DNA of 64,000 nucleotides from Paracoccus sp. MBLB3053 (GTDB lineage: Bacteria; Pseudomonadota; Alphaproteobacteria; Rhodobacterales; Rhodobacteraceae), in assembly GCF_031822435.1 (NCBI RefSeq), contig NZ_JAVQLW010000001.1, forward strand, positions 868,501 through 932,500. Reading direction: 5' to 3'. The notes below the pieces were generated by a model that saw only the letters and a list, made by a program, of their open reading frames with translations, had not been told where the DNA came from and did no database searches. This document shows positions 7,030 to 30,602 of the stretch, in pieces. Made by a program: the position numbers and the translations under genes. How positions within the stretch are numbered: position 1 is the first letter of the stretch; each line of letters opens with the position of its first letter.

Positions 7030-7033
7030 GTCC

Positions 7034-11947: not shown

Positions 11948-13075
<1,128 letters not shown>

Positions 13076-13100
13076 TCGGTAAGGGCTGCTTAGTTAAAAG

Positions 13101-13127: not shown

Positions 13128-13153
13128 GCCATGAGAAAAGAAGGAGCAGGCCG

Positions 13154-13792: not shown

Positions 13793-14301
13793 CCACAGGC
13801 GGGACAGAGATCTTCATCCGTCCCGCCACGCCAGATGACCGGGACGCGATCTGGACGATCCTGGAGCCGGTCTATCGGGCGGGTGAAACCTATTGTATTC
13901 CGACCGACATCACGCGGGACGATGCTCTGGCGGACTGGTTTGCCGCGCCTTTCACGGCATTCGTCGCTGAACTGGATGGCAAGGTGCTTGGGACCAGTCA
14001 TGTCGGCCGGAATCGTCCCGGTCCGGCCAGTCATGTCGCCAATGCAAGCTTTGCGACCCATGCCGAGGCAAGGGGGCGTGGCATTGCAAGGGCTCTTGTT
14101 ATCCACGCCAAGGATTGGGCGCGTCAGCAGGGGTTCAGGGCGATGCAGTTCAACTTTGTCGTCTCTACGAATGCAGACGCTGTCCATTCCTGGCAAAAGG
14201 CAGGTTTCAGCATCGTCGGACGGCTGCCGGGCGCGTTCCTGCATCCGCAGCAGGGATATGTCGACGCATTGGTGATGTTCAACGACCTGACTGCAGCGTG
14301 A
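13789..14301 (+). CDS. GNAT-family N-acetyltransferase
   Basis: This 170-residue protein has the GNAT fold: IFIRPATPDDRDAIWTI at the start, the core strand KVLGTSHVGRN, and the acetyl-CoA loop region AEARGRGIARALVIHAKDWARQQGF (Q/R-x-x-G-x-G/A). A final block, FNFVVSTNADAVHSWQKAGFSIVGRLPGAF, is typical of the YhhY/phosphinothricin-like group. The substrate cannot be read from sequence. The ATG at 13789 overlaps the stop of the ClpP-like gene, suggesting cotranscription. Confidence 0.85.
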   Translation: MTTGGTEIFIRPATPDDRDAIWTILEPVYRAGETYCIPTDITRDDALADWFAAPFTAFVAELDGKVLGTSHVGRNRPGPASHVANASFATHAEARGRGIARALVIHAKDWARQQGFRAMQFNFVVSTNADAVHSWQKAGFSIVGRLPGAFLHPQQGYVDALVMFNDLTAA

Positions 14302-14308
14302 TCTTCGG

Positions 14309-15466: not shown

Positions 15467-15684
15467 GACATGATCCCCTCAATGTAAACTGCGCGACGAT
15501 AACACGATTCGGACGCTGCCATCGGCCTGCTGGTCATTTCCCTTTCGCGTGACATCGGTGCCACGGTCACGCGGAAGGCGCGGCGCCACCGGAAATTTGG
15601 TGCAGAGATGCGGATTTCAGGTTGCCCGTTCCCGGGCCATGAATTGGATTGGGCGCGCAAGGATTCCCCGGAAAGGAAAATCGG

Positions 15685-16518
15685 ATGAACTTCGAGACGA
15701 TCTCAGAAAATCGCAGTTTTGGAGGTACGCAGGGCGTCTATCGCCACAAGTCCGAGGCTACGGGAACGGACATGACCTTTGCAGTCTATCTTCCTCCTGC
15801 CGCGCGATACGGCAAGGTTCCCGTGCTTTGGTATCTCTCGGGGCTGACCTGCACACATGAGAACGCCATGACCAAGGCGGGCGCCCAGGAATGGGCATCT
15901 GAATATGGCATTGCGCTGATCTTTCCCGATACCAGCCCGCGTGGTGAGGGCGTTGCCAATGACGAAGCCTATGATCTTGGGCAGGGCGCCGGTTTCTATG
16001 TCGATGCGACGCAGGAGCCGTGGGCCCCGCATTTCAAGATGTGGCACTATGTGACCCATGAGCTTCCTGAACTGGTGTTCACGAACTTTCCCCTTGATCG
16101 CGATGCACAGGGCATCACCGGGCATTCGATGGGCGGCCATGGCGCACTGACGATCGCCATGACATTGCCCGAGCGTTACAAGTCGGTTTCCGCCTTTTCT
16201 CCCATCGCCCATCCCAGTGAATCGGATTGGGGTCGCAAGCAGCTCACTGCCTATCTCGGGAATGACAAGTCCGCTTGGGCCAAGCATGATGCGACGCTCT
16301 TGATGCGCGACAAGGGCTATCCGGGCGAAATCCTGATCGATCAGGGTGCGGCCGATCAGTTCCTGGAACTGCTGAAACCCGAGGCCCTGGCCCATGCCAT
16401 GGCGGAACGTCGACAACCCGGCGAGTTCCGCATGCAGCAGGGCTATGACCACAGCTATTTCTTCGTCCAGACATTCATGGCCGAGCATGTTCGCTGGCAC
16501 GCGGAACGCCTGGGCTGA
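15685..16518 (+). CDS. fghA: S-formylglutathione hydrolase
   Basis: The enzyme hydrolyses S-formylglutathione to formate and glutathione, completing glutathione-linked formaldehyde oxidation started by FrmA. The 277-residue esterase-D-type hydrolase has the nucleophile motif GHSMGGHG with Ser148. YLSGLTCTHENAMTKAGAQEWASEYGI and FPDTSPRG are oxyanion and family blocks, and GYDHSYFFVQTFMAEH carries the catalytic His. I choose the ATG at 15685 behind a purine-rich GGAAAGGAAAA; the upstream TTG at 15649 adds nothing conserved. It lies next to xoxF, matching the arrangement known in Paracoccus denitrificans. Confidence 0.96.
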   Translation: MNFETISENRSFGGTQGVYRHKSEATGTDMTFAVYLPPAARYGKVPVLWYLSGLTCTHENAMTKAGAQEWASEYGIALIFPDTSPRGEGVANDEAYDLGQGAGFYVDATQEPWAPHFKMWHYVTHELPELVFTNFPLDRDAQGITGHSMGGHGALTIAMTLPERYKSVSAFSPIAHPSESDWGRKQLTAYLGNDKSAWAKHDATLLMRDKGYPGEILIDQGAADQFLELLKPEALAHAMAERRQPGEFRMQQGYDHSYFFVQTFMAEHVRWHAERLG

Positions 16519-16714: not shown

Positions 16715-18517
16715 ATGAAAAGACTGATGAAGGGCGCCACTTTGGCGCTGCTGTTGTCCGGCTCTTCTGCGCTGGCCAACGACAGTGTGATGGCCGAGAT
16801 CGCCAAGCCGGAACAGTGGGCGATCCAGACCGGCGACTATGCCAATACCCGCTATTCGACGCTCGACAAGATCAACAAGGACAACGTCAAGGACCTGCGG
16901 GTGGCCTGGACGTTCTCGACCGGCGTTCTGCGCGGCCATGAAGGTTCGCCGCTGGTCATCGGGGATGTGATGTATGTCCATACACCTTTCCCCAACAACA
17001 TCTTCGCACTTGACCTCAACGACAATGGAAAGATCCTGTGGCGTTACGAACCACAGCAGGATCCGAATGTCATTGCCGTCATGTGCTGCGATACGGTCAG
17101 CCGTGGCCCTGCCTATGCCGACGGGATGATCCTGTTCCATCAGGCCGATACGACACTGATTGCGCTGGATGCCAAGACCGGCGAGCTCAAATGGTCGGTC
17201 CAGACCGGCGATCCCGCGATCGGGGAAACCAACACCGCGACCGTGCTTCCGGTCAAGGACAAGGTCATCGTTGGTGTTTCGGGCGGTGAATATGGCGTCC
17301 GTGGCCGCGTGACTGCATATAGCCTGGCCGATGGGTCCGAGGTCTGGAAAGCCTATTCGACCGGCCCAGACGAGGAAATGCTGGTCGACCCCGAAGCGAC
17401 GATGCATTTGGGCAAGCCAATCGGCAAGGACAGCTCGCTGAGCACCTGGGAAGGCGATCAGTGGAAGATCGGTGGCGGCACCACCTGGGGCTGGTACTCA
17501 TATGATCCGGAACTCAACCTGGTCTATTACGGCACCGGCAACCCATCGACCTGGAACCCTGCGCAGCGGCCGGGCGACAACAAATGGTCGATGACCATCA
17601 TGGCCCGCGATGCCGATACCGGCATGGCCAAGTGGTTCTACCAGATGACGCCGCATGACGAATGGGACTTCGACGGGGTCAACGAGATGATCCTGACGAA
17701 CCAGACCATCGATGGGACCGAGCGCAAGCTGCTGACCCATTTCGACCGCAACGGCCTTGGCTATACGCTGGATCGTGAAACCGGCGAGCTGCTCGTGGCC
17801 GAGAAATACGACCCGTCGGTGAACTGGACCACCGGCGTAGACATGGACGCCAATTCGGAAACCTATGGCCGTCCGGCCGTGGTTGCTGAATATTCGACCG
17901 AACAGAACGGCGAAGACACCAACTCGACCGGCATCTGCCCGGCCGCGCTTGGCTCCAAGGACCAGCAGCCTGCCTCCTTCTCGCCCAAGACGAACCTGTT
18001 CTACGTCCCGACGAACCATGTCTGCATGGATTACGAGCCGTTCCGCGTGGCCTATACTGCGGGGCAGCCCTATGTCGGTGCGACACTCTCGATGTATCCC
18101 GCGCCGGACAGCCATGGCGGCATGGGGAACTTCATCGCCTGGGACAATACAAAGGGTGAGATCAAGTGGTCTCTGCCCGAGCAGTTCTCGGTCTGGTCAG
18201 GTGCTCTGGCGACCGCGGGCGACATCGTCTTCTACGGGACGCTGGAAGGCTATCTGAAAGCCGTGAATGCCGAAACCGGCGAAGAACTCTACAAGTTCAA
18301 GACGCCTTCGGGCATCATTGGCAATGTCATGACCTATGAGCATGGTGGCAAACAGTATGTCGGCATCCTGTCAGGTGTCGGCGGCTGGGCGGGCATCGGT
18401 CTTGCGGCTGGTCTGACCAATCCCAATGAAGGCCTGGGTGCCGTGGGCGGATATGCGTCGCTGTCGCAATATACCGAACTCGGTGGACAGTTGACGGTGT
18501 TCGAACTGCCCGGCTGA
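16715..18517 (+). CDS. xoxF: Lanthanide-dependent PQQ methanol dehydrogenase XoxF
   Basis: XoxF is a periplasmic quinoprotein that oxidises methanol, passing electrons to a cytochrome c. The signal peptide is about 21 residues (ending SSALA). The tandem-cysteine ring is C124-C125. The catalytic segment is [10 protein letters not shown]: Asp318 is the catalytic base and Asp320 is the extra acid that distinguishes lanthanide-binding XoxF from calcium-type MxaF, which has Ala there. Repeated tryptophan-docking blades ([39 protein letters not shown]) form the eight-bladed propeller. The length is 600 residues. GGAGGG precedes the ATG. No mxaF is present in the window. Confidence 0.97.
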
Positions 18518-18558
18518 CATCATACTTTGGTGCCGGATCACAAACTGTGACTCGAATT

Positions 18559-18598
18559 GGGCCGCTCCAGGGGTAACTTGGGGCGGCCCGGTCATTTT
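18559..18598 (+). terminator. Hairpin between xoxF and xoxG (attenuator or stabiliser)
   Basis: A ten-base-pair stem (18559-18568 with 18580-18589, one G-T pair) with an 11-base loop is followed by GGTCATTTTG. It could partially terminate transcription after xoxF or protect its 3' end, giving more xoxF than xoxG message. This is an inference from structure only. Confidence 0.6.
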
Positions 18599-18622
18599 GT
18601 GCGGGTTAGGGAGGAAGCATTG

Positions 18623-19201
18623 ATGACGGACAGGACGACCGCCAGGCTGTTGGCGATCTGCATCGCGTGCGTTGGGGGCGTTACGGCCCAAACGACTGTT
18701 GCACAGGAAAGCACGACAACTACGCCAGTCGCCAATACCGAAGCGGTATTGCCCAACGGACAGGACATGACGCCCGACTACATGGAGAACGGGCGTTGGT
18801 ATACGGCCGACGGCATTCCGACTTACAAGATCGCGGAAGACGGCACTTTGGATTACGCAACCTTTTCCGGATACCGGCGCTATTCCGCAGAATGCCACGT
18901 CTGCCATGGCCCGGATGGCGAAGGCTCGACCTATGCGCCTGCGCTCAAGAATTCGGTGCTGAACATCGACTATTACGAGTTCCAGGAAGTAGTCGCCTCG
19001 GGCAAGCAGGATGTGAACAAGGCAGCCAACCTTGTCATGCCGGCATTCGGCACAAACAAGAATGTCTGGTGCTATATCGATGATATCTATGCCTATCTCA
19101 TCGCGCGTGGTGTCGGCGAACTGCCGCGCGGTCGCCCCGCGAAAAAGGAAGCCAAGTCGGATGAATTTGCCGCGCAGGAAGATTCCTGCATGAGCGGATG
19201 A
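18623..19201 (+). CDS. xoxG: Cytochrome c electron acceptor of XoxF (XoxG, c553i-like)
   Basis: This is a periplasmic c-type cytochrome, the expected electron acceptor of XoxF. After a signal peptide there is one heme site, C91-H-V-C94-H95 (AECHVCHGPDGEGS), and a candidate axial methionine in LVMPAFGTN. The C-terminal half has an extra Cys in VWCYIDD and another in EDSCMSG, which might pair. The length is 192 residues from the ATG at 18623 with GGGAGG upstream. The equivalent Paracoccus denitrificans gene is cycB, encoding cytochrome c553i. The stop overlaps xoxJ by four bases. Confidence 0.93.
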   Translation: MTDRTTARLLAICIACVGGVTAQTTVAQESTTTTPVANTEAVLPNGQDMTPDYMENGRWYTADGIPTYKIAEDGTLDYATFSGYRRYSAECHVCHGPDGEGSTYAPALKNSVLNIDYYEFQEVVASGKQDVNKAANLVMPAFGTNKNVWCYIDDIYAYLIARGVGELPRGRPAKKEAKSDEFAAQEDSCMSG

Positions 19202-20016
19202 TCAGCCGCCTCGCCATATTGGCCATCGCGGCGCTTGCTGCCCTTGGCGGTCCGGTCTTGGCGCAGGTTGCCGATCTGCGCTCGCATTCCGAATTTCGTG
19301 TCTGCGCCGATCCGGCGGCCGTTCCGATGTCCGCGCAGGATGGCTCGGGCTTCGAAAATCGGCTTGCCGAACTTTTCGGCGAAAAGCTTGGGCTTCCTGT
19401 GACCTATGCCTGGTTTCCGCAGGGCACGGGTTTCATCCGCAAGACGCTGAGGGCCGGGCTTTGCGACGTCGTGATCGGGTATGCCCAAGGCGATGAGATG
19501 GTTCTGAATACGAACCATTACTACACATCGGCCTATGGTATCGTGACCCGCAAGGACAGCCCGCTGGCCGATGTGGATATGCTTGAGGACGCCGCGCTGA
19601 AGGGGCAGCCGATAGGCGTCGTGGCAGGAACGCCTCCCGCTACGAACCTGGCACGGGCCGGTCTTGCCAAGGACATGCGCGGCTGGGACCTGTTCGTGGA
19701 CCGGCGGACCGAGAATCCTGTGGGCGATATGCTGTCCCAGGTCAAGTCCGGCGAATTGGCCGCCGCAGTGCTTTGGGGACCACTTGCAGGCCCTCTGGTC
19801 AAGCAGGACCCGGATCTGCAGTTCACGCCGCTCGTGAAGGAGACGACTGGGCCGAAGATGTTCTACCGCATCACGATGGGCGTCCGCTTGGGCGAGGATG
19901 CCTGGAAGCGCGAGCTGAACAGCCTCATTCGCCGCAATCAGGACGAGATCGACGCGATCCTGCGTGACGCGGGCGTTCCGATTCTGGACGATTATGGCAA
20001 GGCTTTGAAACAATGA
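19198..20016 (+). CDS. xoxJ: Periplasmic solute-binding-fold protein XoxJ (quinoprotein maturation)
   Basis: XoxJ has the fold of family 3 solute-binding proteins, and has been proposed to hold open apo-XoxF during cofactor insertion rather than to import a solute. A signal peptide (ending PVLA) precedes FRVCADPAAVPMSAQDGSGFENRLAELFG, the classic start of this fold. VTYAWFPQGTGFIRKTLRAGLCDVVIG follows, a strong match to MxaJ/XoxJ proteins. The length is 272 residues. It is coupled to xoxG and to the next gene by four-base overlaps. No permease or ATPase belongs to it. Confidence 0.9.
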   Translation: MISRLAILAIAALAALGGPVLAQVADLRSHSEFRVCADPAAVPMSAQDGSGFENRLAELFGEKLGLPVTYAWFPQGTGFIRKTLRAGLCDVVIGYAQGDEMVLNTNHYYTSAYGIVTRKDSPLADVDMLEDAALKGQPIGVVAGTPPATNLARAGLAKDMRGWDLFVDRRTENPVGDMLSQVKSGELAAAVLWGPLAGPLVKQDPDLQFTPLVKETTGPKMFYRITMGVRLGEDAWKRELNSLIRRNQDEIDAILRDAGVPILDDYGKALKQ

Positions 20017-20537
20017 GGTTCGGCGCCGTCATTTTCCTGATTTTGACGGCAGGCGGCGCGCTGGCCCAGGTGCCCGAGCCACAGAACTTTCATGGCGAGC
20101 CGTATCGTTCCGAAGTGCCCGCTACACTGAGCGGTGCGCGCGTTGTCGACACGGCTGAGGCGATCGAGCTGCATGACAGTGGCGTGCCGTTTGTCGACGT
20201 GATGCCGCGCAAGGCAAGGCCCGAGGGTTTGCCGGACGGAACGATCTGGGCCGCCCCTGCCCATATGACGATCACCGGGGCGACATGGCTTTTCGACACG
20301 GGATATGAACGGATATCCCCCATCGAAGAGCAGCGGCTTGCCGAAGGGCTCGCCGCAGCCACCAAGGGCGACAAGACTGCACAGTTTGTCATCTTCTGTC
20401 GCAGGGATTGCTGGATGAGCTGGAATGCCGGCAAGCGCGCCGTCGATCTGGGCTATACGGGCGTGATCTGGTTCCCTGACGGCAGCGATGGATGGCAGGA
20501 AGCGGGGCGCGACCTGGTCATTGCTGACGTCCCGTGA
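20013..20537 (+). CDS. PQQ-associated CxxxCW-motif rhodanese-like protein
   Basis: A signal peptide (ending GALA) precedes a 150-residue rhodanese-like domain. The active-site loop is IFCRRDCWMSWNAGKRA, giving the CxxxCW signature of a family repeatedly found beside PQQ-dependent dehydrogenases. A redox or sulfur-transfer role has been guessed in the family but not shown. The ATG overlaps the xoxJ stop, making it the fourth gene of the xox operon. Its 3' end overlaps the convergent beta-propeller gene by 20 bases. Confidence 0.85.
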   Translation: MRFGAVIFLILTAGGALAQVPEPQNFHGEPYRSEVPATLSGARVVDTAEAIELHDSGVPFVDVMPRKARPEGLPDGTIWAAPAHMTITGATWLFDTGYERISPIEEQRLAEGLAAATKGDKTAQFVIFCRRDCWMSWNAGKRAVDLGYTGVIWFPDGSDGWQEAGRDLVIADVP

Positions 20538-21444
20538 ATCTGCCGAAGGCGCGCGGACCATCGGGCAACTCGATTTCGCGCGTGATGGCAAGGCTCGTGG
20601 CATCGATCCAGACAAGGGTGTTGGAATCCCAATGCGCCACCACCACGCCCGACCCGTCTGGCAAGGGCGCGATGCCTTCCGGGTAGTCACCGGTTTCGAT
20701 CGTTCTCATCGGCTCGAGCGATCCTGCATCGAAGACGGTCACCGTCCCGGCATATTGGTCTGTGACGAAACCAAGCCCCTTTGCGAAGGCGATCCCGTAG
20801 GGATGACTTCCGGTCGGGATTTGCCCGATCAGCTTGCCCTCGGCCAGATCGATGACGCTGACCGTGTTGCTTTGCACGTCCGCGCTCCAGATCCTGCCGT
20901 CATGTATGACGACCGCATAGGGATGCTTGCCGACCGTGACCCGTGCCTTCAGCTTTCCTGACACCGCATCAAAGATCGAGATGCGGTCATCGTCCCGATC
21001 GGCGGTCGCCACCAGTTTTCCGTCCGTCGCCACGCCGGCTGGCGCATGGCCAGTTGGCACGGACCAGAGCACATTCAGTTCGGCGTCCAGTTTCATCAGC
21101 CGTCCCTGATACCATTCGGTCACGAACAGATAGCCATCAGGCGCGGTCGCGATGCCGAATGCGCCTGTTGGCAGATGCTTGCTGCGCAGAACCGTTCCCG
21201 CCTCATCGATGACGCTCAACACCCCGGTTTCGGCCGATATGGCATAGGCACGCGAATGCGACGGGTCATAGGCCACCGGAGCAGGTGCGCCGGGCAATTC
21301 GGTGCGTGCCAGAACATCCCCCGAGTCCAGATCGACGACGCTCAGCATCTGCGCGTTTTGCGAAGTCACGAATGCCAGATCTGCTGCCGACGCCGGGCCA
21401 GCCATCAGATGCCCAAACGCGATGGCTGCGAGCCCGCCTTTCAT
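20518..21444 (-). CDS. YVTN-family beta-propeller protein (periplasmic), xox-associated
   Basis: A signal peptide (ending GPASA) is followed by repeated blades of about 42 residues. Examples are LAFVTSQNAQMLSVVDLDSGDVLARTELPG, GRIWSADVQSNTVSVIDLAEGKLIGQIPTGSHPYGIAF, and YAGTVTVFDAGSLEPMRTIETG. About six or seven blades fit in 308 residues. It is one of two such proteins in the island. The gene is transcribed after the SRPBCC gene with an ATGA overlap, on the strand opposite the xox operon. Binding partner is unknown; maturation or redox-partner roles for quinoproteins are inference. Confidence 0.85.
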   Translation of the reverse strand: MKGGLAAIAFGHLMAGPASAADLAFVTSQNAQMLSVVDLDSGDVLARTELPGAPAPVAYDPSHSRAYAISAETGVLSVIDEAGTVLRSKHLPTGAFGIATAPDGYLFVTEWYQGRLMKLDAELNVLWSVPTGHAPAGVATDGKLVATADRDDDRISIFDAVSGKLKARVTVGKHPYAVVIHDGRIWSADVQSNTVSVIDLAEGKLIGQIPTGSHPYGIAFAKGLGFVTDQYAGTVTVFDAGSLEPMRTIETGDYPEGIAPLPDGSGVVVAHWDSNTLVWIDATSLAITREIELPDGPRAFGRFTGRQQ

Positions 21445-21992
21445 TCGGCCTTGCCAAACCTTTCGGCCAGCGCGTCCAGCCCGGCCTGATAGACCCCGTT
21501 CACGGCTGCCATCGCCGCCTCGTCGTTCAGTTCCGGCGGGGGCTCATTATTGGGATAGCCGCGATAGAACCCTGCCTTCCACTCAACCAACGCCTTGCCG
21601 CCATCATCCTTCACGCAGATCGTGGAGGCGTAGTTGGTCACCGGCAGAACCGTGACCTCGACCGCTTCGATACGATAGGCATAGCAGCGTTTTTCGGGCT
21701 GCCACTTCGACAGGATCTCGGTGATCGTCGGATCACCACCATCGGATTTGAGATGCAGGATCCGTTCGGATTTCTCGGGTTGATCGACCGAGCCATCCCC
21801 GCTCACCTCGACCGATGCGATCGCGGGATGCCAGCTCATGTCTTCGAATTTTCCGATCACGGACCATACCTCGTCCGGTGTCGCATTCAGTTTCTGATCC
21901 AGGCTCAGTTTGAGCCGAACCGGCCCATGGGCCTGCGCCCCAGTCGCAAGCACAATCGTGGCGCCCAAGGTCAGGGCCAGAAGTCGCTTCAT
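21441..21992 (-). CDS. Exported SRPBCC-family (START-like) protein
   Basis: A signal peptide (MKRLLALTLGATIVLATGAQA) precedes a polyketide cyclase/START-like domain. The opening LDQKLNATPDEVWSVIGKFEDMSWHPAIASVEVSGDG is diagnostic of this hydrophobic-cavity fold. The end, YRGYPNNEPPPELNDEAAMAAVNGVYQAGLDALAERF, is the long C-terminal helix. I set the start at the ATG at 21992, which has a strong GGAGGAG; a longer frame to 22172 lacks the signal. The protein has 183 residues. Such proteins recur beside PQQ dehydrogenase genes, but the ligand is not known. Confidence 0.8.
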   Translation of the reverse strand: MKRLLALTLGATIVLATGAQAHGPVRLKLSLDQKLNATPDEVWSVIGKFEDMSWHPAIASVEVSGDGSVDQPEKSERILHLKSDGGDPTITEILSKWQPEKRCYAYRIEAVEVTVLPVTNYASTICVKDDGGKALVEWKAGFYRGYPNNEPPPELNDEAAMAAVNGVYQAGLDALAERFGKAE

Positions 21993-22193
21993 CCAGTCTC
22001 TCCTCCGTGGGGCACGGTCCGACAGCCCAGGGACAGGCCGGAGGGAATGCCCGATGCGACGACCATGCCCGCTGCAATTGCCAAACGTCCATACGACTAA
22101 TGTATCGGGTGGTTTTCCCCGGATCGAACCGGGCGGCTTTCCCGGCTTGGCGCATGGGAACTTGCCCGCCATGATGGGCAGGGGAGGATGGGG

Positions 22194-23390
22194 ATGAATT
22201 GCAGAATCATCATACTTTTGGCGGGGTTGTGCAGCTCAAGCCCGGCCCTTGGCCAGTCTTCCGACGCCAGGCAGCCGGAGCAGACCATACGTGCGGCCGT
22301 GCTTCGCGTGGACACGCCGGACTTGCCGCCGATCTCGCGTCTGGACACGCCTCCGCTTGATCTTGGTTTTGCCGGGGCGCGGCTCGCGATCGAGGACAAC
22401 GATACCACTGGCCAGTTCATGGGTCAGGATTTCGAGGCGCTCGAAGTCACCGCCACGCCCGAAACTGCCGCGGCCGCATTGGAAAAATTGCTGGCAGAGG
22501 ATGTCGGTTTCATCGTGACGCTCGCGGATGAAGAGCAGACGCTCAAGCTCTCGGATCAGGCTGGCGACAAGGCGCTGCTGCTCAATGCCCGAGCAAGGGG
22601 TGACAATCTGCGTGGCGCGGATTGCCGCTTCAACATCATCCATACAGCGCCCAGTCACGCCATGCTGGCGGACGGTATTGCCCAGTTCCTGATGTGGAAG
22701 AAATGGACGCGCTGGTTCCTGATTTCAGGCAGCCATGCCGAGGATACGGCCCTTGCCGACGCCTATCGCCGCGCGGCCACCAAATTCGGTGCGAAGATCG
22801 TCGAGGAACGCATCTATGAAGATACGGGCGGCGGGCGAAGGACCGATAGCGGACATGTGCAAGTCCAGCAGCAGATGCCGGTCTTCACGCAACGCGCCAA
22901 AGAACATGATGTCGTTCTGGCGGCAGATGAGGCCGGGATCTTTGCGCCATGGCTGCCTTATCAGACCTGGGACCCACGCCCGGTCGCAGGTTCCGCCGGG
23001 CTGGTGCCGCGAAGCTGGCATCCCGCGCTTGAGGCCTGGGGGGCGACGCAGTTTCAGAACCGCTTCGAGAAACTGTCGATGCGGCGCATGTGGGACGAAG
23101 ATTATCAGACCTGGCTTGCATTGAGGATGATTGGCGAAGCGGCGACGCGAACTCAAAGCATCGATGCGGCCACCCTCAAGGAGTTCATGCTATCGGATCG
23201 GTTCGAGGTCGCGGGCTTCAAGGGACAAAAGCTGACCATCCGCGACTGGGACCACCAGTTGCGCCAGCCGATCCTGCTGACCACGGGCGATGTGACGGCA
23301 TCTGTCAGCCCACAGGATCAGTATCTGCATCAAAGCTCGGCGCTGGATACGCTGGGCATCGACAGGCCTGAAACCCAATGCAAATTCTGA
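22194..23390 (+). CDS. Periplasmic binding protein of the PQQ-associated ABC system
   Basis: After a signal peptide (ending SSSPALG), this 398-residue protein has a type I periplasmic-binding fold like branched-chain amino acid receptors: IRAAVLRVDTP, NIIHTAPSHAMLADGIAQFLMWKKWTRWFLISGSHAEDTALADAYRRAATKFG. It corresponds to the family described as the ABC substrate-binding component linked to PQQ-dependent alcohol dehydrogenases. I take the ATG at 22194, seven bases from GGGGAGG; the ATG at 22188 is too close to it. It heads a seven-gene operon, divergent from the SRPBCC gene. The ligand is unknown; rare-earth or alcohol-related uptake is inference. Confidence 0.85.
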   Translation: MNCRIIILLAGLCSSSPALGQSSDARQPEQTIRAAVLRVDTPDLPPISRLDTPPLDLGFAGARLAIEDNDTTGQFMGQDFEALEVTATPETAAAALEKLLAEDVGFIVTLADEEQTLKLSDQAGDKALLLNARARGDNLRGADCRFNIIHTAPSHAMLADGIAQFLMWKKWTRWFLISGSHAEDTALADAYRRAATKFGAKIVEERIYEDTGGGRRTDSGHVQVQQQMPVFTQRAKEHDVVLAADEAGIFAPWLPYQTWDPRPVAGSAGLVPRSWHPALEAWGATQFQNRFEKLSMRRMWDEDYQTWLALRMIGEAATRTQSIDAATLKEFMLSDRFEVAGFKGQKLTIRDWDHQLRQPILLTTGDVTASVSPQDQYLHQSSALDTLGIDRPETQCKF

Positions 23391-23398
23391 GGCTCAAG

Positions 23399-24373
23399 AT
23401 GAACCAACTCGTGACTGCCATCCTGACCTCGGCGATCTGCCTGGGGCTGGGAACCGCCGCTTTGGCGAACCGCGTCTTCGTGAGCAACGAAAAGGGGAAT
23501 GACGTGACCGTGCTCGACAGCGAGACGCTGGAGGTCATCGGACATTTCCCGGTCGGTGCCCGACCGCGCGGCATCACGATCAGCCCCGATGGCAAGGAGC
23601 TTTATGTCTGCGCATCGGATGACGATCTTGTGCGCGTCTTCAATCCCGAGACGATGGAGGAAACCCATACCCTCCCATCGGGTCCCGATCCCGAGCTTTT
23701 CGTGCTGCACCCATCTGGAAACCCGCTTTACATCGCGAATGAGGACGACAACCTCGTGACCGTTGTGGACACGCAGACACACAAGATGCTGGCGGAAATT
23801 CCGGTTGGAGTCGAACCCGAGGGAATGGGGATCAGTCCGGATGGCAAGGTTGTCATCAACACCTCGGAAACCACCAACATGGCGCATTTCATCGATTCCG
23901 AATCCTATGAGATCTTTGCCAACGTGCTGGTCGACTCGCGCCCCCGCTTTGCCCAGTATAACGATGCCGGCACCAAGCTATATGTGAGCGCCGAAATCGG
24001 CGGCACTGTCAGCGTGATCAATCCCGAGACGCAATCGATCGAGAAGAAGATCACCTTTGACATTCCCGGCGTGCTTCCTGAAGCGATTCAGCCCGTGGGG
24101 GTGCGCGTTACCAAAGACGGCAAGAAGGTGTTCGTCGCGCTGGGGCCCGCAAACCGGGTCGCCGTCATCAACGGTGAAACGGATGAGGTCGAGGAATATC
24201 TGCTTGTCGGCCAGCGCGTCTGGCAAATGGCCTTCACGCCCGACCAGAAATACCTCTTCACGACCAACGGGAATTCGAACGACGTCTCGGTGATCGACGT
24301 GGCTGCAGGCAAGGTCATCAAGTCGATCCAGGTCGGACAGCAGCCTTGGGGCGTGGTCGTCGCACCGAACTGA
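23399..24373 (+). CDS. YVTN beta-propeller protein of the PQQ-associated ABC system
   Basis: A signal peptide (ending TAALA) precedes regular blades of a periplasmic propeller: VFVSNEKGNDVTVLDSETLEVIGHFPVGARPRGITISPDG, LYIANEDDNLVTVVDTQTHKMLAEIPVG, and FTTNGNSNDVSVIDVAAGKVIKSIQVGQQPWGV. It has 324 residues. The ATG at 23399 follows GAGG and lies nine bases after the binding-protein gene. The family is known from conserved PQQ-ABC neighbourhoods. Its sequence differs from the other propeller here, so this is not a recent duplication. Confidence 0.88.
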   Translation: MNQLVTAILTSAICLGLGTAALANRVFVSNEKGNDVTVLDSETLEVIGHFPVGARPRGITISPDGKELYVCASDDDLVRVFNPETMEETHTLPSGPDPELFVLHPSGNPLYIANEDDNLVTVVDTQTHKMLAEIPVGVEPEGMGISPDGKVVINTSETTNMAHFIDSESYEIFANVLVDSRPRFAQYNDAGTKLYVSAEIGGTVSVINPETQSIEKKITFDIPGVLPEAIQPVGVRVTKDGKKVFVALGPANRVAVINGETDEVEEYLLVGQRVWQMAFTPDQKYLFTTNGNSNDVSVIDVAAGKVIKSIQVGQQPWGVVVAPN

Positions 24374-24399
24374 ACCCAAAATAACGGAGGAGGAAACAC

Positions 24400-24966
24400 A
24401 TGACACGATTGCTGACCGTCCTGATTCTGATGACGGGCCTAGCTGTCCCGGCAGCCGCGCAGGATGCCCCGCCTGAAAAACCCGCAGATGCGGCGGCCAA
24501 GGCCGAGGCTGCGCAAATGGAGGAAGGCGAAGACGACGATGGGGAAGAAGAAACTGGCGCGGCCGCCGAGGGCGTGCATGAGGCCGGCGCCAAGTTTGAT
24601 TATGGCTTTTCGGGGATGCTGGCGCGCGACAATCGTATGCAGCTTGCGCCGCTGACGCTTGCTTCGGGCAAGCCCGTTGCCGCAGCAGAATACAAGCTGA
24701 AATCGGGGGGCTATTACCGTATCGACATCAACGCCGACGGCAGCCAGGAACTGGCACTTTCCGGTGGCGATTTCTTCCGCGCCATCTGGGTCAACGAGAT
24801 CGTGGTGAACGATATCGAGATCCGACCCTTGGGCGTACATTCGCTTGAATTCGACGATGCCGGAACGGCGACGCTGAGCTTCATCGCGATCATGCCGGGA
24901 CGCTATACCTTGTCGATACCCGGCTCGCAGGGCGAAACCCAGCAGGCCGTCTTCAACATCCAGTAA
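24400..24966 (+). CDS. Exported protein with acidic linker, PQQ-ABC operon (unknown function)
   Basis: The protein has 188 residues. A signal peptide (ending AAA) is followed by a low-complexity segment rich in Ala, Glu and Asp (EEGEDDDGEEETG at about residues 46-58), then a beta-rich domain of about 120 residues. That domain (YKLKSGGYYRIDINADGSQELALSGGDFFRAIWVNEIVVNDIEIRPLG) resembles cupredoxin-like or plastocyanin-like sandwiches in pattern but shows no obvious copper ligand set. The acidic run could bind cations. A strong GGAGGAGG precedes the ATG. I do not recognise a characterised homologue. Confidence 0.7.
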   Translation: MTRLLTVLILMTGLAVPAAAQDAPPEKPADAAAKAEAAQMEEGEDDDGEEETGAAAEGVHEAGAKFDYGFSGMLARDNRMQLAPLTLASGKPVAAAEYKLKSGGYYRIDINADGSQELALSGGDFFRAIWVNEIVVNDIEIRPLGVHSLEFDDAGTATLSFIAIMPGRYTLSIPGSQGETQQAVFNIQ

Positions 24967-24999
24967 CCCCCAAGCGACGATTTCCCGGCTTCGAGGCAG

Positions 25000-25722
25000 A
25001 TGACACAGGACGCGCTTTCCATCCAGAATGTCAGCCACAGCTTCGGGCGCTTCGAGGCATTGAAGGATGTGTCGCTTACCGTGCCCCAAGGAGGCTTCAC
25101 CGCCCTTCTTGGGGTGAACGGAGCAGGCAAGACGACGCTTTTTTCCCTGATCACAAGGCTTTACGACAATTCATCGGGGCGGATCGAGGTCGCGGGGCAT
25201 GATCTGCGCCGGGAACCAGGTGCTGCGCTTGCGCGGCTTGGGGTCGTTTTCCAGTCCCGCTCGCTGGACCCGGATCTGACGGTTGCGCAAAACCTCCACT
25301 ACCACGCCGCATTGCATGGCATCGGAAGATCCGAGGCGCGGGTCCGTGCCCATGAAGTCCTGACGCAGGTCGGGCTTTCGGACCGCATGGGCGTGAAGGT
25401 GGCCGCGCTTTCGGGGGGACAGCAACGACGGGCCGAGATCGCCCGCGCGCTTATCCATCACCCCGAAATACTCTTGCTCGACGAAGCGACCGTGGGCCTC
25501 GATGTGAAGTCGCGCGCCGAGGTGTTGGCCCTGACCCGCGAATTGACGCGCCACGGCGTCTCGGCGCTTTGGGCGACCCATCTGATGGATGAGATCCGCC
25601 CCGAGGACGGGCTTGTCATTCTGCACCGGGGTCGGGTGCTCGCAAGTGGCGTGGCCAGAGAGATCGCTGGCAAAGACAGTCTGACCGAAGCTTTCCTGCA
25701 TCTGACCGGAGAAGGGGAATGA
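25000..25722 (+). CDS. ABC transporter ATP-binding protein, PQQ-associated system
   Basis: This is a 240-residue ABC ATPase: Walker A GVNGAGKTTL (about residues 39-48), Q-loop VVFQSRSLD, signature LSGGQQRRAEIARAL, and Walker B ILLLDEATVGLD. The sequence groups with ATPases of ABC-2-type (exporter-like) systems. The permease follows with an ATGA overlap. Together with the binding protein at 22194 it matches the PQQ-alcohol-dehydrogenase-associated ABC system. In Pseudomonas putida the related PedA1A2BC system was reported as needed for growth at low lanthanide (established knowledge, recalled and not checked here). Confidence 0.93.
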   Translation: MTQDALSIQNVSHSFGRFEALKDVSLTVPQGGFTALLGVNGAGKTTLFSLITRLYDNSSGRIEVAGHDLRREPGAALARLGVVFQSRSLDPDLTVAQNLHYHAALHGIGRSEARVRAHEVLTQVGLSDRMGVKVAALSGGQQRRAEIARALIHHPEILLLDEATVGLDVKSRAEVLALTRELTRHGVSALWATHLMDEIRPEDGLVILHRGRVLASGVAREIAGKDSLTEAFLHLTGEGE

Positions 25723-26537
25723 GCCAACGTCTGACCTCGCGCATGTGGCTGGTCGCGTTTCTGGGGATAGCCCGGCGCGAGACCCTTCGCTTTGTCAACC
25801 AGCGCGGACGCTTCCTGGCGGCGCTGGTCAGGCCGCTGGTCTGGCTGTTCATCTTTGCCGCCGGATTTCGAGCGGTGCTGGGGCTTTCGATCACGCCGCC
25901 CTACCAGACCTATGTCCTTTATGAGGTATACGTCACCCCAGGCCTTTGCGCGATGATCCAGCTTTTCAACGGCATGCAAAGCTCGCTCTCGATGGTCTAT
26001 GACCGCGAGACGGGTGCGATGCGCACGCTGCTTGTCAGCCCGTTTCCCCGCTGGTTCCTGCTGTTGTCGAAGCTGGTCGCAGGGGTGATCGTGTCGATCA
26101 TCCAGGTCTACACCTTTCTCGCGATCGCCTGGTTCTGGGATGTTCAGCCGCCTCGGCTGGGATATCTGACGGTGCTGCCCGCATTGATCCTGTCCGGGCT
26201 CATGCTGGGCGCGATGGGGCTGCTGCTGTCATCGGCGATACGGCAGCTTGAAAACTTCGCGGGCGTGATGAACTTCGTGATCTTCCCGATGTTTTTCGCC
26301 TCGACCGCGCTCTACCCGTTGTGGCGGATGCGCGAAAGTTCCACGCTCTTGCACGACATCTGTGCCGTCAATCCCTTCACCCATGCGGTTGAGTTGGTTC
26401 GCTTTGCCCTTTACGCGAAGTTCGATCTGATGTCCTTCTCGGTGGTGCTGGGTTGTCTCGTCCTGTTTTTCGCAGGGGCCGTGATCATGTATGATCCGTC
26501 AAAGGGGCTTTGGGCCCGGCGAAAGGGGGGAACATGA
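25719..26537 (+). CDS. ABC-2-type permease, PQQ-associated system
   Basis: This integral membrane protein of 272 residues has about six hydrophobic segments. They include LVRPLVWLFIFAAGFRAVLGLSI, a C-terminal VVLGCLVLFFAGAVIMY, and the ABC-2 core LVSPFPRWFLLLSKLVAGVIVSIIQVYTFLAIAWFW. The fold is that of polysaccharide, drug and Nod-factor exporters rather than importers. Its pairing with a periplasmic binding protein gene is a hallmark of this PQQ-linked system and leaves transport direction open. It overlaps both neighbours by four bases. Confidence 0.92.
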   Translation: MSQRLTSRMWLVAFLGIARRETLRFVNQRGRFLAALVRPLVWLFIFAAGFRAVLGLSITPPYQTYVLYEVYVTPGLCAMIQLFNGMQSSLSMVYDRETGAMRTLLVSPFPRWFLLLSKLVAGVIVSIIQVYTFLAIAWFWDVQPPRLGYLTVLPALILSGLMLGAMGLLLSSAIRQLENFAGVMNFVIFPMFFASTALYPLWRMRESSTLLHDICAVNPFTHAVELVRFALYAKFDLMSFSVVLGCLVLFFAGAVIMYDPSKGLWARRKGGT

Positions 26538-27130
26538 AACGGCTGGCTCTTGCGCTGGCGTTATTTGGCGTCACGTCGGCTGCCCAGGCAGAATCCAGCA
26601 CCGATCCGGATTGGCCCTGCATTCAGCGAAAACAGCCGCATTTGTCGCTGGGTCAAATGTGGTCCGGGCCCGAGCCCAATGACACGATCAGGGAGCTGGC
26701 CGTGTCGAAGCCGATTTCGGATCTGGCTGACCGGCTTGAGCAGCGCAGGCTCCCTCTCGAAGCGGCGGAAGCTGAAATCGCGGAATTCGCCAGGACAGCC
26801 GACAACGACCAGCTTACCGCCCTTCTGGTGGCCATTTTCAACCGGGTTGAGCCTCACAGGACGGCGGTGATCGCGGGGATTTCGCGCTATGGTCACAAAC
26901 AGGTGGACCTTGCCCAAAGGATCGAAGACCATCGCGCGAAGATGGCCCAGATGGAAAAGGTCGAGACGCCTGACTTCGATGCCATTGATGCAGAAGAAAA
27001 ACAGCTTGATTGGGATATGCGAATTTTTCAGGACCGACAGCAGGCATTGACCTATGTCTGCGAAACCCCCGTCATACTTGAGCAAAGGGTGTTCGCCTTG
27101 GCGCGGGCAATTCAGGCGGGGCTGAAATGA
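26534..27130 (+). CDS. Exported protein of unknown function, PQQ-ABC operon
   Basis: This 198-residue protein has a signal peptide (ending AAQA) and a mature start DPDWPCIQRKQPHLSLGQMWSGP. Long amphipathic helices follow, likely a helical bundle or coiled coil (LADRLEQRRLPLEAAEAEIAEFA and HRAKMAQMEKVETPDFDAIDAEEKQ). Two cysteines (in PCIQ and VCETP) may form a disulfide. It overlaps the permease stop and the mobA start, so it is an integral member of the operon. I do not recognise a characterised homologue. The choice of the ATG at 26534 rather than 26510 follows from the signal peptide. Confidence 0.75.
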   Translation: MKRLALALALFGVTSAAQAESSTDPDWPCIQRKQPHLSLGQMWSGPEPNDTIRELAVSKPISDLADRLEQRRLPLEAAEAEIAEFARTADNDQLTALLVAIFNRVEPHRTAVIAGISRYGHKQVDLAQRIEDHRAKMAQMEKVETPDFDAIDAEEKQLDWDMRIFQDRQQALTYVCETPVILEQRVFALARAIQAGLK

Positions 27131-27729
27131 ACGGTCCGCCGGCGGTGATCCTCGCGGGCGGGCTTTCAAGCCGCATGGGTGGGGGAAACAAGGGGCTGCG
27201 CCTGCTGGCCGGTGAAACCCTGCTTGCCCGCGTGATCACACGCCTGACCCCGCAATGCGGCCTGCTTGCAATCAACGCGAATGGCGAGCCCGAACAGTTC
27301 GAGGATTATGGCCTGCCCGTGATTGCCGACAGCTTTTCCGGCTTTGCCGGACCTCTGGCGGGCGTTCTGGCGGGGATGGAATGGGCGGCAGCGCAGAATC
27401 TGGACGAGGTCGTGAGCGTCAGCGTGGATACGCCCTTCCTGCCATGGGACCTCGTGCATCGCCTGGTCGAGGCGAGGGGGCGGTCCGGGTTGGCGCTGGC
27501 TGCCAGCCCTGGCGATGACGGCCTGCTTCGCGATCATCCCACTTGCGCGATATGGCCTGTCACGCTGGCAGACGAACTTCGGGCGGCACTTGAATCGGGG
27601 CTGCATCGGATCGGCCAGTTCGCCGCTGCCTATGATCCCGGACGGGCCGTCTTTGACAGCCATCCCGTGGATCCCTTCATGAACCTCAATACGCCAGAAG
27701 ACCTGGCCCTGGCCTCTCGCTACATCTGA
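27127..27729 (+). CDS. mobA: Molybdenum cofactor guanylyltransferase MobA
   Basis: MobA transfers GMP from GTP to molybdopterin cofactor, making the bis-MGD form used by formate dehydrogenases and nitrate reductases. The nucleotide-binding start VILAGGLSSRMGGGNKG covers about residues 7-23. SVDTPFLP and a C-terminal PFMNLNTPEDL also fit the family. The length is 200 residues. The ATG overlaps the preceding stop, so it is transcribed with the PQQ-ABC genes. A link to formate oxidation downstream of methanol and formaldehyde oxidation is plausible inference. Confidence 0.93.
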   Translation: MNGPPAVILAGGLSSRMGGGNKGLRLLAGETLLARVITRLTPQCGLLAINANGEPEQFEDYGLPVIADSFSGFAGPLAGVLAGMEWAAAQNLDEVVSVSVDTPFLPWDLVHRLVEARGRSGLALAASPGDDGLLRDHPTCAIWPVTLADELRAALESGLHRIGQFAAAYDPGRAVFDSHPVDPFMNLNTPEDLALASRYI

Positions 27730-27800
27730 CGGCTGCACAAAAGAGCGGGTTGCGGCTTCAACCTTCCCGCGTGGGGCTGTAACTGGTGCCCACGCCCCTT

Positions 27801-27820
27801 TCGGTATTCCTCGGTATACC
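27801..27820. repeat. Tandem 10-base near-repeat upstream of Nramp-like gene
   Basis: TCGGTATTCC is followed directly by TCGGTATACC, differing at one base, with exact 10-base spacing, about one DNA helical turn. The second copy contains the palindrome GGTATACC. It lies about 50 bases before the ATG of the Nramp-like gene and could be an operator. No regulator is identified. Confidence 0.5.
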
Positions 27821-27872
27821 TTCGTTCAACTGTCAGGGGTGCAAACCGGAACAGTTATGAGAGGAGGCAGGG

Positions 27873-29135
27873 ATGACGAACCGAAACGATCATCCGTCGG
27901 GCGTTGAGGCCAAGTGGAGCATCGTCGGCCCGGGTCTGGTTGTTGCGGCGACCGGTGTCGGCGCCGCAGACCTGATCGCGACCACAGTCGCCGGCAGCAA
28001 ATATGGCTATGCCCTGCTATGGGCTGTCATCGCGGGTTGCATCATGAAGGTGATCCTGGTCGAGGGCGCTGGCCGCTACAGCCTTGCGACCGGCAACACG
28101 ATCTTTGAAGGCTGGAGCAGCCTCGGCCGCTGGACCCATTGGTATTTCGGCCCCTATATCGTGATCTGGGGCTTCGTCTACGGTGCAGCGGCGATGGCGG
28201 GGACGGGCCTTGCGCTCTATTCCCTTTTCCCGTTCTTCAGCGTTGCCGTCTGGGGCATCCTGTGCGGACTTGCCGGTCTCGCGCTGGTCTGGTCGGGTCG
28301 CTACGACGTCTTCGAGAAGGTCCTGACCGTGATGGTCGGCCTGATGTTCGTCACGATGATCATCGCGGCTGCCTTCACCGTTCCGAACCTCGGGGAAATC
28401 GTCAAGGGCCTTGCTCCGGCCATTCCCCAAGGGGCGCTGATCAACGTGCTCAGCGTGGCTGGCGGTGTCGGCGGCACGATCACCCTTGCAGCCTATGGTT
28501 ACTGGCTGCGCGAGAAGGGGTGGACCACCCCACGGTTCATGCGAGTGATGCGGATGGACAACGGGATTGCCTATCTCGTCACCGGGATTTTCGTGATCGC
28601 CACCCTGATCGTCGGGGCCGAGCTTCTGCATTCGGCCAAAATCGCCATCGGCGGTGGAGATCAGGGCATGGTCGATCTGGCGGGTGTCCTGGGCGAACGC
28701 TATGGCGTGTGGATGAGCAAGTTGTTCCTGTTGGGCTTCTTCGCGGCCTCGATGAGCTCGCTGGTCGGGGTCTGGAACGGGGTCAGCCTGATGTTTGCGG
28801 ACTTCCTGGGCCATGTGCAGGGCAAGGCGCATGATCACCCGGATCGGCTGTCGGGCGGGCGTTACTACAAGTTCTACATCTTCTGGCTGACCTTCCCGCC
28901 GATGATCATGATGTTCCTGGGCAAGCCGGTCTACCTGATCCTCGCCTATGGCGTTCTGGGTTCGCTCTTCATGCCGTTCCTGGCCATCACGCTGCTGTGG
29001 ATACTCAACACCGACCGCGTGCCTGCCGAATGGCGCAACCGCCCGCTGACCAACCTCATGCTGCTGCTTTGTGCCGCCGCGTTCGTTTCCCTTGCCGCGA
29101 ACGAACTTTACACGCGCGTGTCGGCGTTCTTCTGA
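27873..29135 (+). CDS. Nramp-fold transporter lacking canonical metal-site motifs
   Basis: This 420-residue membrane protein has about eleven hydrophobic segments and the LeuT/Nramp fold. The first helix, GPGLVVAATGVGAADLIATTVAGSKYGYALLW (residues 19 to 50), aligns with MntH, but DPGN is replaced by GAAD. In helix 6 the MPH motif position reads TLA (GGTITLAAYGYW). These residues bind Mn/Fe in true Nramps, so the substrate should differ. An AGGAGG precedes the ATG. It lies after the PQQ-ABC operon, 143 bases from mobA, with a hairpin after its stop. The specificity is unknown. Confidence 0.85.
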   Translation: MTNRNDHPSGVEAKWSIVGPGLVVAATGVGAADLIATTVAGSKYGYALLWAVIAGCIMKVILVEGAGRYSLATGNTIFEGWSSLGRWTHWYFGPYIVIWGFVYGAAAMAGTGLALYSLFPFFSVAVWGILCGLAGLALVWSGRYDVFEKVLTVMVGLMFVTMIIAAAFTVPNLGEIVKGLAPAIPQGALINVLSVAGGVGGTITLAAYGYWLREKGWTTPRFMRVMRMDNGIAYLVTGIFVIATLIVGAELLHSAKIAIGGGDQGMVDLAGVLGERYGVWMSKLFLLGFFAASMSSLVGVWNGVSLMFADFLGHVQGKAHDHPDRLSGGRYYKFYIFWLTFPPMIMMFLGKPVYLILAYGVLGSLFMPFLAITLLWILNTDRVPAEWRNRPLTNLMLLLCAAAFVSLAANELYTRVSAFF

Positions 29136-29172: not shown

Positions 29173-29904
29173 TTACACGCCGTAACGGCGCCACAGCCTT
29201 GCAAGCGCAATGGCGACCAGCCGCGCAAAGACGACCGTCATCACCGACAGGACCAGCAGGGCGGCGAAGACCAGATCGGTCTTCATCCTTCCGTTCGCGT
29301 GGATCATCAGCGCCCCCAGACCGCGCGCGCCCCCGACCCATTCGCCGATCACCGCCCCTATGGGCGCATATACCGCAGCCAGCCTGATGCCGGTTGCCAG
29401 TTGCGGCAGCGCTGCGGGAATGCGCAGGTGGCGCATGATCCGACCGCGGGACGCGCCCATGACTTGTGCGAGATCCAGCGCGGCCTGCGGGGTGCGCGCA
29501 AGCCCGTCGAGAAATGCCGATGCGACCGGGAAGAACACGATCAGCACGGTCACCGCAATCTTCGGAGCCATGCCGAATCCCAGCCAAAGCGTCAGGATGG
29601 GGGCAAGAGCAAAGACCGGGATTGTCTGCGAAAACGTCAGGATCGGCCGAAGGATCGAGGTGAGCCTTTGGGAAAAGCCCATCGCGACCGCCAATGCCGC
29701 ACCCAATGCCGATCCGATCACGAATCCAAGGATCACTTCGGTCAGGGTGAAGCCGGCATACTGGACAATCTGGACCCGATTGAGCCAAAGCGCCTCGGCC
29801 ACTGCTGCGGGTGAGGGGAGCAGGAAATGCGGCATCCCGGCAAGCCAGATTATGCCCTGCCAAATCGCCAGAACCGTGATGATCAACGCGGTGACGGTTC
29901 TCAT
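29173..29904 (-). CDS. thiX: ABC transporter permease, pyrimidine precursor uptake (ThiX-like)
   Basis: This 243-residue permease has about six membrane helices and the binding-protein-dependent transport (EAA) motif EVILGFVIGSALGAALAVAMG...QTIPVFALAPILTLWLGFGMAPK. It is of the nitrate/taurine/thiamin-precursor class. It is the distal gene of the thiamin operon and overlaps thiZ by four bases. With ThiY and ThiZ it should import a thiamin pyrimidine precursor such as N-formyl-aminopyrimidine; the exact substrate is inferred from neighbours. Confidence 0.88.
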   Translation of the reverse strand: MRTVTALIITVLAIWQGIIWLAGMPHFLLPSPAAVAEALWLNRVQIVQYAGFTLTEVILGFVIGSALGAALAVAMGFSQRLTSILRPILTFSQTIPVFALAPILTLWLGFGMAPKIAVTVLIVFFPVASAFLDGLARTPQAALDLAQVMGASRGRIMRHLRIPAALPQLATGIRLAAVYAPIGAVIGEWVGGARGLGALMIHANGRMKTDLVFAALLVLSVMTVVFARLVAIALARLWRRYGV

Positions 29905-30602
29905 GCCATCATTCCCCGCATGAGCCGGGCTTGAAACGACAGCACTTCGGGCGCGTCATAGGGGCGCGCCGCACCAATCGGTCTTGCTGTCGGCACGGGC
30001 CATTCGCTGAGCCCCTCTTCGCGCAAAAGCAGAATGCGATCGCCCAGTCGCGCAGCCTCCGCCGGGTCATGCGTGACCAGTAGAACCGTCCGACCGGCCA
30101 GCAGTCGGGCCGCCAGATCCTGCATCTGCGCGCGGGTCCGGGCATCCAGCGCCGAAAACGGTTCATCCAGCAGGACGATCGGCCTGTCCTCAAACAGGGT
30201 TCGGGCCAGCGCAACGCGCTGGCGCTGGCCGCCCGAGAGATTTTCCGGCAAGTGGTGTGCCCGATCCGTCAGCCCCACCGCGGCGATGAGTTCCGCTGCG
30301 CGCGACAGGTCCGGATGTTCGCCGCGAAGCCGCGCACCAAGGGTCACATTGCCCGTCACATCAAGCCAGGTTATCAGCCCCGGATCCTGTGACATCAGAG
30401 CGACGGGCCGATCGGTCGCAACTTCGCCCTCGAAGCGGGCGCCGGTTTCCAGCCCCGCGATAAGTCGCAGGATGGTTGACTTGCCCACCCCCGACGGACC
30501 CAGAAGGCAGGTCCAGCCGCCCTGATCCAGACGCAGGTCGACCGGGGCAAAAAGCGCTGCCTCGCCGACCCATGCCCGGCCATGGACCCGTGCCACGCTC
30601 AT
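29901..30602 (-). CDS. thiZ: ABC transporter ATP-binding protein, pyrimidine precursor uptake (ThiZ-like)
   Basis: This 233-residue ATPase has Walker A GPSGVGKSTILR (about residues 36-47), signature LSGGQRQRVALARTL, Walker B IVLLDEPFSALD and the switch His in VTHDPAEA. It belongs to the SsuB/TauB/ThiZ class that pairs with the downstream permease. Overlaps with tenA and thiX place it in the thiamin operon, which is what assigns the pyrimidine-precursor role. Confidence 0.9.
   Translation of the reverse strand: MSVARVHGRAWVGEAALFAPVDLRLDQGGWTCLLGPSGVGKSTILRLIAGLETGARFEGEVATDRPVALMSQDPGLITWLDVTGNVTLGARLRGEHPDLSRAAELIAAVGLTDRAHHLPENLSGGQRQRVALARTLFEDRPIVLLDEPFSALDARTRAQMQDLAARLLAGRTVLLVTHDPAEAARLGDRILLLREEGLSEWPVPTARPIGAARPYDAPEVLSFQARLMRGMMA

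Follow-up and report, generated by a model that had tools for sequence, protein, structure and literature searches.

A XoxF5-type methanol oxidation locus, very probably equipped with its own lanthanide ATP-binding cassette (ABC) system of the PedA1A2BC/LutAEF kind and followed by what is most likely a separately acquired Nramp gene, is encoded in a stretch of 64,000 nucleotides of Paracoccus sp. MBLB3053 (contig NZ_JAVQLW010000001.1, positions 868,501 to 932,500), hereafter the window. The kind of ABC system is already known; the comparative support that ties its binding protein, PedA1, to dehydrogenases with the lanthanide-type D-x-D motif (DxD) is new. The results bear on the selection, transport and insertion of lanthanides in bacteria. 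Locus and survey point to two conserved proteins without a name, predicted to be periplasmic and here called u188 and u206, as candidate parts of the lanthanide pathway. The survey also gives evidence that the Ped/Lut transporter goes with the lanthanide enzyme rather than with pyrroloquinoline quinone (PQQ). Position alone is no ground for calling the adjoining Nramp gene a lanthanide transporter. An earlier reading of the bare sequence (the original prediction) had joined all these genes in one complete module for lanthanide or quinoprotein supply.

The ABC part belongs to the known PedA1A2BC/LutAEF kind of lanthanide system. Its four subunit families, TIGR03863, TIGR03864, TIGR03861 and TIGR03866, are all matched over their cut-offs within one operon, which upholds the proposed relation to PedA1A2BC of Pseudomonas putida. 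The distribution of the system was surveyed in 240 alphaproteobacterial genomes, an even sample of the class. PedA1, called at E < 1e-100, is present in 30/240 genomes, and in 22 of the 30 it also exceeds the curated cut-off. Of the 57 genomes with a TIGR03863 match, 27 have it at E 9.5e-20 or weaker and are excluded from the PedA1 count. PqqC over cut-off is present in 40/240 genomes, a PQQ alcohol dehydrogenase at E <= 1e-60 in 56/240. Dehydrogenases were typed by the residue two past the catalytic Asp, in 105 aligned proteins from the 56 genomes. Four PedA1 genomes in which no dehydrogenase was matched are not counted in the two-by-two tables, and kinship is treated solely through a count of one genome per family. 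At least one DxD dehydrogenase is present in 26/26 typed PedA1 genomes vs 10/30 without PedA1 (Fisher p 6.4e-8); the other 20 typed genomes without PedA1 possess DxT or DxE dehydrogenases only. With one genome per family, DxD is present in 19/19 vs 7/21 (p 5.5e-6). The stricter motif D[YF]DG is present in 21/26 vs 4/30 (p 4.6e-7). PedA1 is present in 12/12 genomes whose XoxF is at least 61% identical. Co-occurrence with xoxF across genomes, which the original prediction had proposed as a check, is seen as tracking of DxD dehydrogenases by PedA1. Nor is the operon found chiefly where xoxF and other PQQ dehydrogenases are missing: 26/30 PedA1 genomes have one at E <= 1e-60.

Among PqqC-positive genomes with a typed dehydrogenase (n = 31), DxD is present in 23/23 with PedA1 vs 2/8 without (p 3.8e-5). 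From the tables, this set included, it follows that what the operon tracks is the enzyme of lanthanide type, not the capacity for PQQ synthesis in itself; association of the ABC operon with the lanthanide-type dehydrogenase rather than with PQQ synthesis is supported. A role in supplying PQQ to any quinoprotein, for example by export to the periplasm, with the lanthanide link secondary, is suggested by the pqq neighbourhood: the operon adjoins pqqB-C-E in four of the compared loci (L116, L119, L123, L134), and in a fifth (L145) u206 lies upstream of pqqB. The matched families are named PQQ-dependent, and an ABC-2 permease fits export. PedA1 is nevertheless missing in 16/40 PqqC genomes, among them all 6 with only non-DxD dehydrogenases, and PqqC over cut-off is missing in 6/30 PedA1 genomes. 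On this distribution a PQQ exporter is judged unlikely, and PQQ supply as the function of the operon is given very little credence.

Several points weigh against a dedicated lanthanide system. D[YF]DG is absent in 5/26 PedA1 genomes. Ten genomes possess a DxD dehydrogenase without PedA1. Among PqqC-negative typed genomes (n = 25) the DxD counts, 3/3 vs 8/22, are not significantly different (p 0.07). Four PedA1 genomes (G130, G155, G181, G191) have no PQQ dehydrogenase at E <= 1e-60, two of the four being less than 90% complete. DxD is a sequence motif and not a metal measurement, and DxD genes may be missed because scoring was limited to five dehydrogenase candidates per genome. Import by the ABC system is not obvious, since the permease is of the ABC-2 (exporter) type. 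No TonB-dependent receptor is present in the window; PF00593 is matched at six places of the genome, all outside. For the last reason the word complete was too strong for the proposed supply module, of which the ABC operon and its dehydrogenase link stand and the Nramp gene does not.

Open frames are confirmed at all positions given earlier for the named genes, 12 of which, including two minus-strand genes, match curated families in Pfam/NCBIfam profile searches. The genes are as follows, in coordinates of the window.

15649..16518, plus strand: fghA, S-formylglutathione hydrolase (formaldehyde oxidation), upstream neighbour; TIGR02821, 434.6 bits.
16715..18517, plus strand: xoxF, lanthanide-type methanol dehydrogenase, D318/D320 forming the D-x-D motif; TIGR03075, 767 bits.
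18557..19201, plus strand: xoxG, c-type cytochrome; TIGR03874, 227.5 bits.
19198..20016, plus strand: xoxJ, periplasmic binding-protein-like; TIGR03871, 289.3 bits.
20013..20537, plus strand: PQQ-dependent catabolism-associated CXXCW protein, rhodanese-like; TIGR03865, 184.2 bits.
20518..21444, minus strand: second beta-propeller, YncE-like; TIGR02276 repeats, PF21783, under the TIGR03866 cut-off.
21441..22172, minus strand: SRPBCC (Polyketide_cyc2) protein, taken to be MxaD-like; PF10604, 103.7 bits; PDB 3cnw, 'Protein XoxI', E 5.1e-12.
22188..23390, plus strand: pedA1, LutA-type periplasmic binding protein; TIGR03863, 470.9 bits, cut-off 413.6.
23378..24373, plus strand: pedA2, periplasmic beta-propeller; TIGR03866, 519.5 bits, cut-off 287.3.
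24400..24966, plus strand: u188, exported, possible cupredoxin-like domain and acidic N-terminal tail; no family match, low-confidence model.
25000..25722, plus strand: pedB, LutE-type ABC ATPase; TIGR03864, 328.7 bits, over cut-off.
25719..26537, plus strand: pedC, LutF-type ABC-2 permease; TIGR03861, 402.6 bits, over cut-off; PF01061.
26534..27130, plus strand: u206, exported helical hairpin, conserved C29 and C176; no family match, model with a predicted local distance difference test score (pLDDT) of 88.6.
27127..27729, plus strand: mobA, overlapping u206 by 4 bases; TIGR02665, 180.9 bits.
27873..29135, plus strand: Nramp-fold transporter without canonical metal site; NF037982; PF01566, 136.1 bits, cut-off 29.8.

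The order pedA1-pedA2-u188-pedB-pedC-u206-mobA is continuous on the plus strand, neighbouring genes overlapping or lying close together, and 143 bases separate it from the Nramp-fold gene. Frames and families agree with the seven-gene operon first described (binding protein, propeller, two unknowns, ATPase, ABC-2 permease, mobA) and with xoxG, xoxJ and the CXXCW protein after xoxF. What had been called a short divergent region is wrong: 20518-22172 encodes the two minus-strand genes for the YncE-like propeller and the SRPBCC protein. The true start of the latter, by signal peptide, is probably near 21992. Upstream of fghA an Omp85-like outer membrane protein with a weak family match is encoded on the minus strand (14309-15466). 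Downstream of the Nramp gene are a thi-type ABC transporter with TenA (29173-32205) and a thiamine pyrophosphate riboswitch (36557-36661).

XoxF carries the motif HDEWDFDG with D318 and D320, the Asp two residues past the catalytic Asp being present. The assignment of D320 as the lanthanide Asp is confirmed by its alignment with the Asp of the lanthanide XoxF of Methylorubrum extorquens, PDB 6oc5 (1093.9 bits, residues 12-599). XoxF is the sole TIGR03075 match in the genome at E <= 1e-60, 5 of 6 candidates having been scored, and is 95% identical to its P. aestuariivivens counterpart (L003, part of xoxF covered). The pqqBCDE cluster of the genome (L149) is followed by a protein (11436-12212) that matches, at 49%, the SoxYZ-like carrier near u206 of Sinorhizobium meliloti.

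By analogy with its family, XoxF would oxidise methanol in the periplasm and pass electrons to XoxG. Signal peptides seen by eye predict a periplasmic location for PedA1, the PedA2 propeller, u188 and u206. PedA1 would bind lanthanide, free or chelated. Handing of lanthanide to PedB/PedC may be assisted by u188, u206 and the propeller, and the PedB/PedC ATPase-permease would move it into the cytoplasm or drive its release towards XoxF. An exporter-type permease does stand alongside a periplasmic binding protein, as originally remarked (TIGR03861/PF01061 with TIGR03863). It is possible, though unlikely, that no importer is present and that ATP use by PedBC acts across the membrane on PedA1, PedA2, u188 and u206, loading XoxF or freeing chelated lanthanide in the periplasm. 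NosDFY, with nitrous oxide reductase, is a parallel for such cross-membrane, ATP-driven periplasmic action. Periplasmic delivery suits an ABC-2 permease with several periplasmic partners, and the possibly cupredoxin-like and the helical partner are conserved with the system; a search of PDB with PedC gave no match at E <= 0.1 and thus, at the sequence level only, no structural tie to NosDFY. In one version of this unlikely reading, PedBC would act through all four periplasmic proteins, which would take lanthanide from a chelator and pass it to XoxF, the acidic tail of the Paracoccus u188 being the lanthanide-catching part. Import is favoured over periplasmic delivery because, in the available text on M. 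extorquens, lanthanum (La) is stored in the cytoplasm of the wild type and kept in the periplasm of lutA/E/F mutants (PMC7391723).

u188 and u206 match no Pfam or NCBIfam model. Both are real genes, as judged from 1900 (u188) and 980 (u206) database homologues at E <= 0.001. In the class survey u188 is present in 12/240 genomes and u206 in 11/240, all 12 and all 11 with PedA1; the subunits of unknown role in the original prediction are accordingly conserved, family-less companions of PedA1. Where either is undetected in a genome, homology may have been missed, because both diverge fast.

Some homologues of u188 are named cupredoxin in their source records. The u188 model is poor (pLDDT 56.5); its beta part resembles cupredoxin-type copper proteins, although a cysteine protease inhibitor takes the first two places in the VIA comparison. 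On this weak model the protein resembles cupredoxins. A conserved Cys/His set of copper ligands was not found in alignment A2, and a literature search on lanthanide, cupredoxin and xoxF gave nothing judged to concern u188. Near the N-terminus, 42/43 Paracoccus-type homologues examined have a 12-residue segment with no fewer than 7 acidic positions, the 43 (window copy included) being part of 120 listed relatives out of 1900 found. At most 5 acidic residues per 12 are present in three named relatives from outside Paracoccus (L241, L242, L245) and likewise in ten distant homologues of A2.

u206 is predicted as a long helical hairpin. W27, P28, C29, W160 and C176 are invariant in the alignment. 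The gene also occurs apart from pedABC, adjoining pqqB on its upstream side in L145 (genome G233) and near xoxG in L144 (G131), so that the target of u206 may be PQQ or XoxF and not the transporter.

In other genomes the gene order varies. In L116, L119 and L123 it is pedA1-A2-B-C-u188-u206-pqqB-pqqC-pqqE, then xoxJ, xoxG, xoxF on the opposite strand; L134 is arranged alike, with u188 not detected. The ped set, u188 and u206 are located in the xoxF locus on Sinorhizobium pSymB (L241) and on Haematobacter massiliensis plasmid pOT1-3 (L242). In the latter a histidine kinase and a response regulator lie directly after u206 (12591-14782) and are a candidate lanthanide-responsive pair. Five loci (L130, L136, L139, L140, L141) carry pedA2, pedA1 and then a more distant pedC (49-53% identity); PedA1 is under the curated cut-off in four of the five genomes, and the arrangement is possibly a paralogous system.

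No other gene of the genome than mobA passes the TIGR02665 cut-off, the next two matches scoring 35.1 and 23.6 bits, and for this reason mobA may be a housekeeping gene. It was dropped as a sign of a dedicated role in the operon. The cut-off is reached in just 1/14 control genomes, so that a single match over it is no proof of a sole MobA.

The Nramp-fold protein is, as first noted, without DPGN and MPH and keeps its match to the PF01566 fold family. Residues 30-33, at the DPGN position, are GAAD (G30-A31-A32-D33); G30 and D33 are present in 76/77 aligned proteins, the remaining one having a gap, and the two positions between them, 31 and 32, are variable. Residues 197-207, at the MPH position, are GGVGGTITLAA and include no M, P or H; residues 200-211 are invariant in 77/77 aligned proteins. 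The metal ligands D, N and M are missing in all covered aligned proteins (76/77 at transmembrane segment 1, 77/77 at transmembrane segment 6).

Neighbourhoods were fetched for 80 of 248 Nramp relatives found; for 12 of these the DNA spans less than 19 kb, with flanks partly cut. By title 68/80 relatives are actinobacterial, none of them beside xox genes, and 2 are betaproteobacterial. Three, all Paracoccus (L003, L008, L011), lie beside xox/ped genes; in 7 further rhodobacterial loci the gene lies elsewhere, and xox or ped genes are not seen in the available flanks of 77/80. No single family is common to the surroundings of the other relatives, the largest cluster after Nramp itself comprising 11 loci. 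In Paracoccus loci L005, L006, L009 and L024 the gene lies beside another gene set on the opposite strand, presumably that of 5-oxoprolinase (pxp/YcsG/LamB). In Haematobacter massiliensis the Nramp gene and the ped/xox locus are on different plasmids. The gene is present in 2/240 class genomes. In a genus sample of 111 genomes (copy threshold E <= 1e-100) it is present in 12/111 and PedA1 in 89/111, 78 of the 89 having no Nramp copy. Distance to pedA1 is less than 10 kb in 3 of the 12 (G000, G248, G270); in 5 the genes share a contig at a distance of at least 120 kb, in 3 they are on different contigs, and 1 is without PedA1.

The whole block could be one lanthanide supply module in which Nramp is a second lanthanide importer. 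In L003, L008 and L011 the gene comes after the operon, and it lies 4.5 kb past pedA1 in G248 and G270, like the present locus, and NRAMP genes in XoxF3 regions have been proposed for lanthanide transport (PMC10875860, in the text available). The scarcity of the gene near pedA1 and among PedA1 genomes, the mainly actinobacterial relatives without xox/ped genes in their flanks, the separate plasmids of Haematobacter massiliensis and the absent metal ligands make such a module highly improbable. The Nramp gene as a module part, as originally predicted, is rejected on distribution and site residues; most likely it is a separately acquired, unrelated neighbour of the XoxF locus and its ABC system. 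No terminator is supported in the interval from mobA to the Nramp gene (z = +1.11); promoter-like sites number 2 (expected 2.5) and terminator-like sites 9 (expected 7.3), with no excess over chance. With these signals at chance, the sole argument for a separate Nramp transcription unit is the 143-base gap. A second Nramp-family copy of the genome (L002), taken to be YcsG-like, lies beside a LamB/YcsF-like gene and has ~20% identity to the window protein. A non-metal substrate is plausible for the Nramp-fold protein, by analogy with Nramp-family proteins on which, in the text available, C. glutamicum and B. subtilis are reported to depend when using 5-oxoproline (PMC13274462).

Compared with PxpT/YcsG as described there (PMC13274462), the window protein shares the Nramp family and differs in genes alongside, which are mobA and the thi-type ABC cluster and not pxpABC. 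NRAMP near XoxF3 (PMC10875860), in the available description, likewise has an Nramp-family gene by xoxF but belongs to other phyla (Acidobacteria/Gemmatimonadetes) and to another XoxF clade; a link between Nramp and xoxF is, with that report, not a new idea. PedA1A2BC of P. putida KT2440, compared by published description (PMC6839425, PMC12997753, as available), has in common with the Paracoccus operon the binding protein, YVTN beta-propeller, ATPase, permease and link to a lanthanide-type PQQ dehydrogenase. It is required for La-dependent growth of a pedE mutant. It differs as a four-gene unit described without u188, u206 and mobA, and it serves PedH, an ethanol dehydrogenase, whereas the Paracoccus operon adjoins XoxF. 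The lutA-H cluster of M. extorquens AM1, in the available text (PMC7391723), shares a binding protein, ATPase, membrane subunit, exported proteins (LutB, LutG) and the XoxF link. u206 after the permease matches LutG by position alone; loss of LutG slows lanthanide-dependent growth of M. extorquens (PMC7391723). The AM1 cluster also encodes the TonB receptor LutH, and LanM (PMC7391723, PMC9260416), in contrast to the window, where a TonB receptor is absent. For S. meliloti 2011, homologues of lutA, B, E, F and G are reported in the available text (PMC12628762). The pSymB locus (L241) differs from the window in an additional ABC transporter with binding protein, permease and ATPase (5456-7801) between u188 and pedB and in u206, which is set apart near a SoxYZ-like carrier gene. 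It has in common xoxF-G-J-CXXCW, pedA1-A2-u188, pedB-C and u206, which are 43-77% identical to those of the window.

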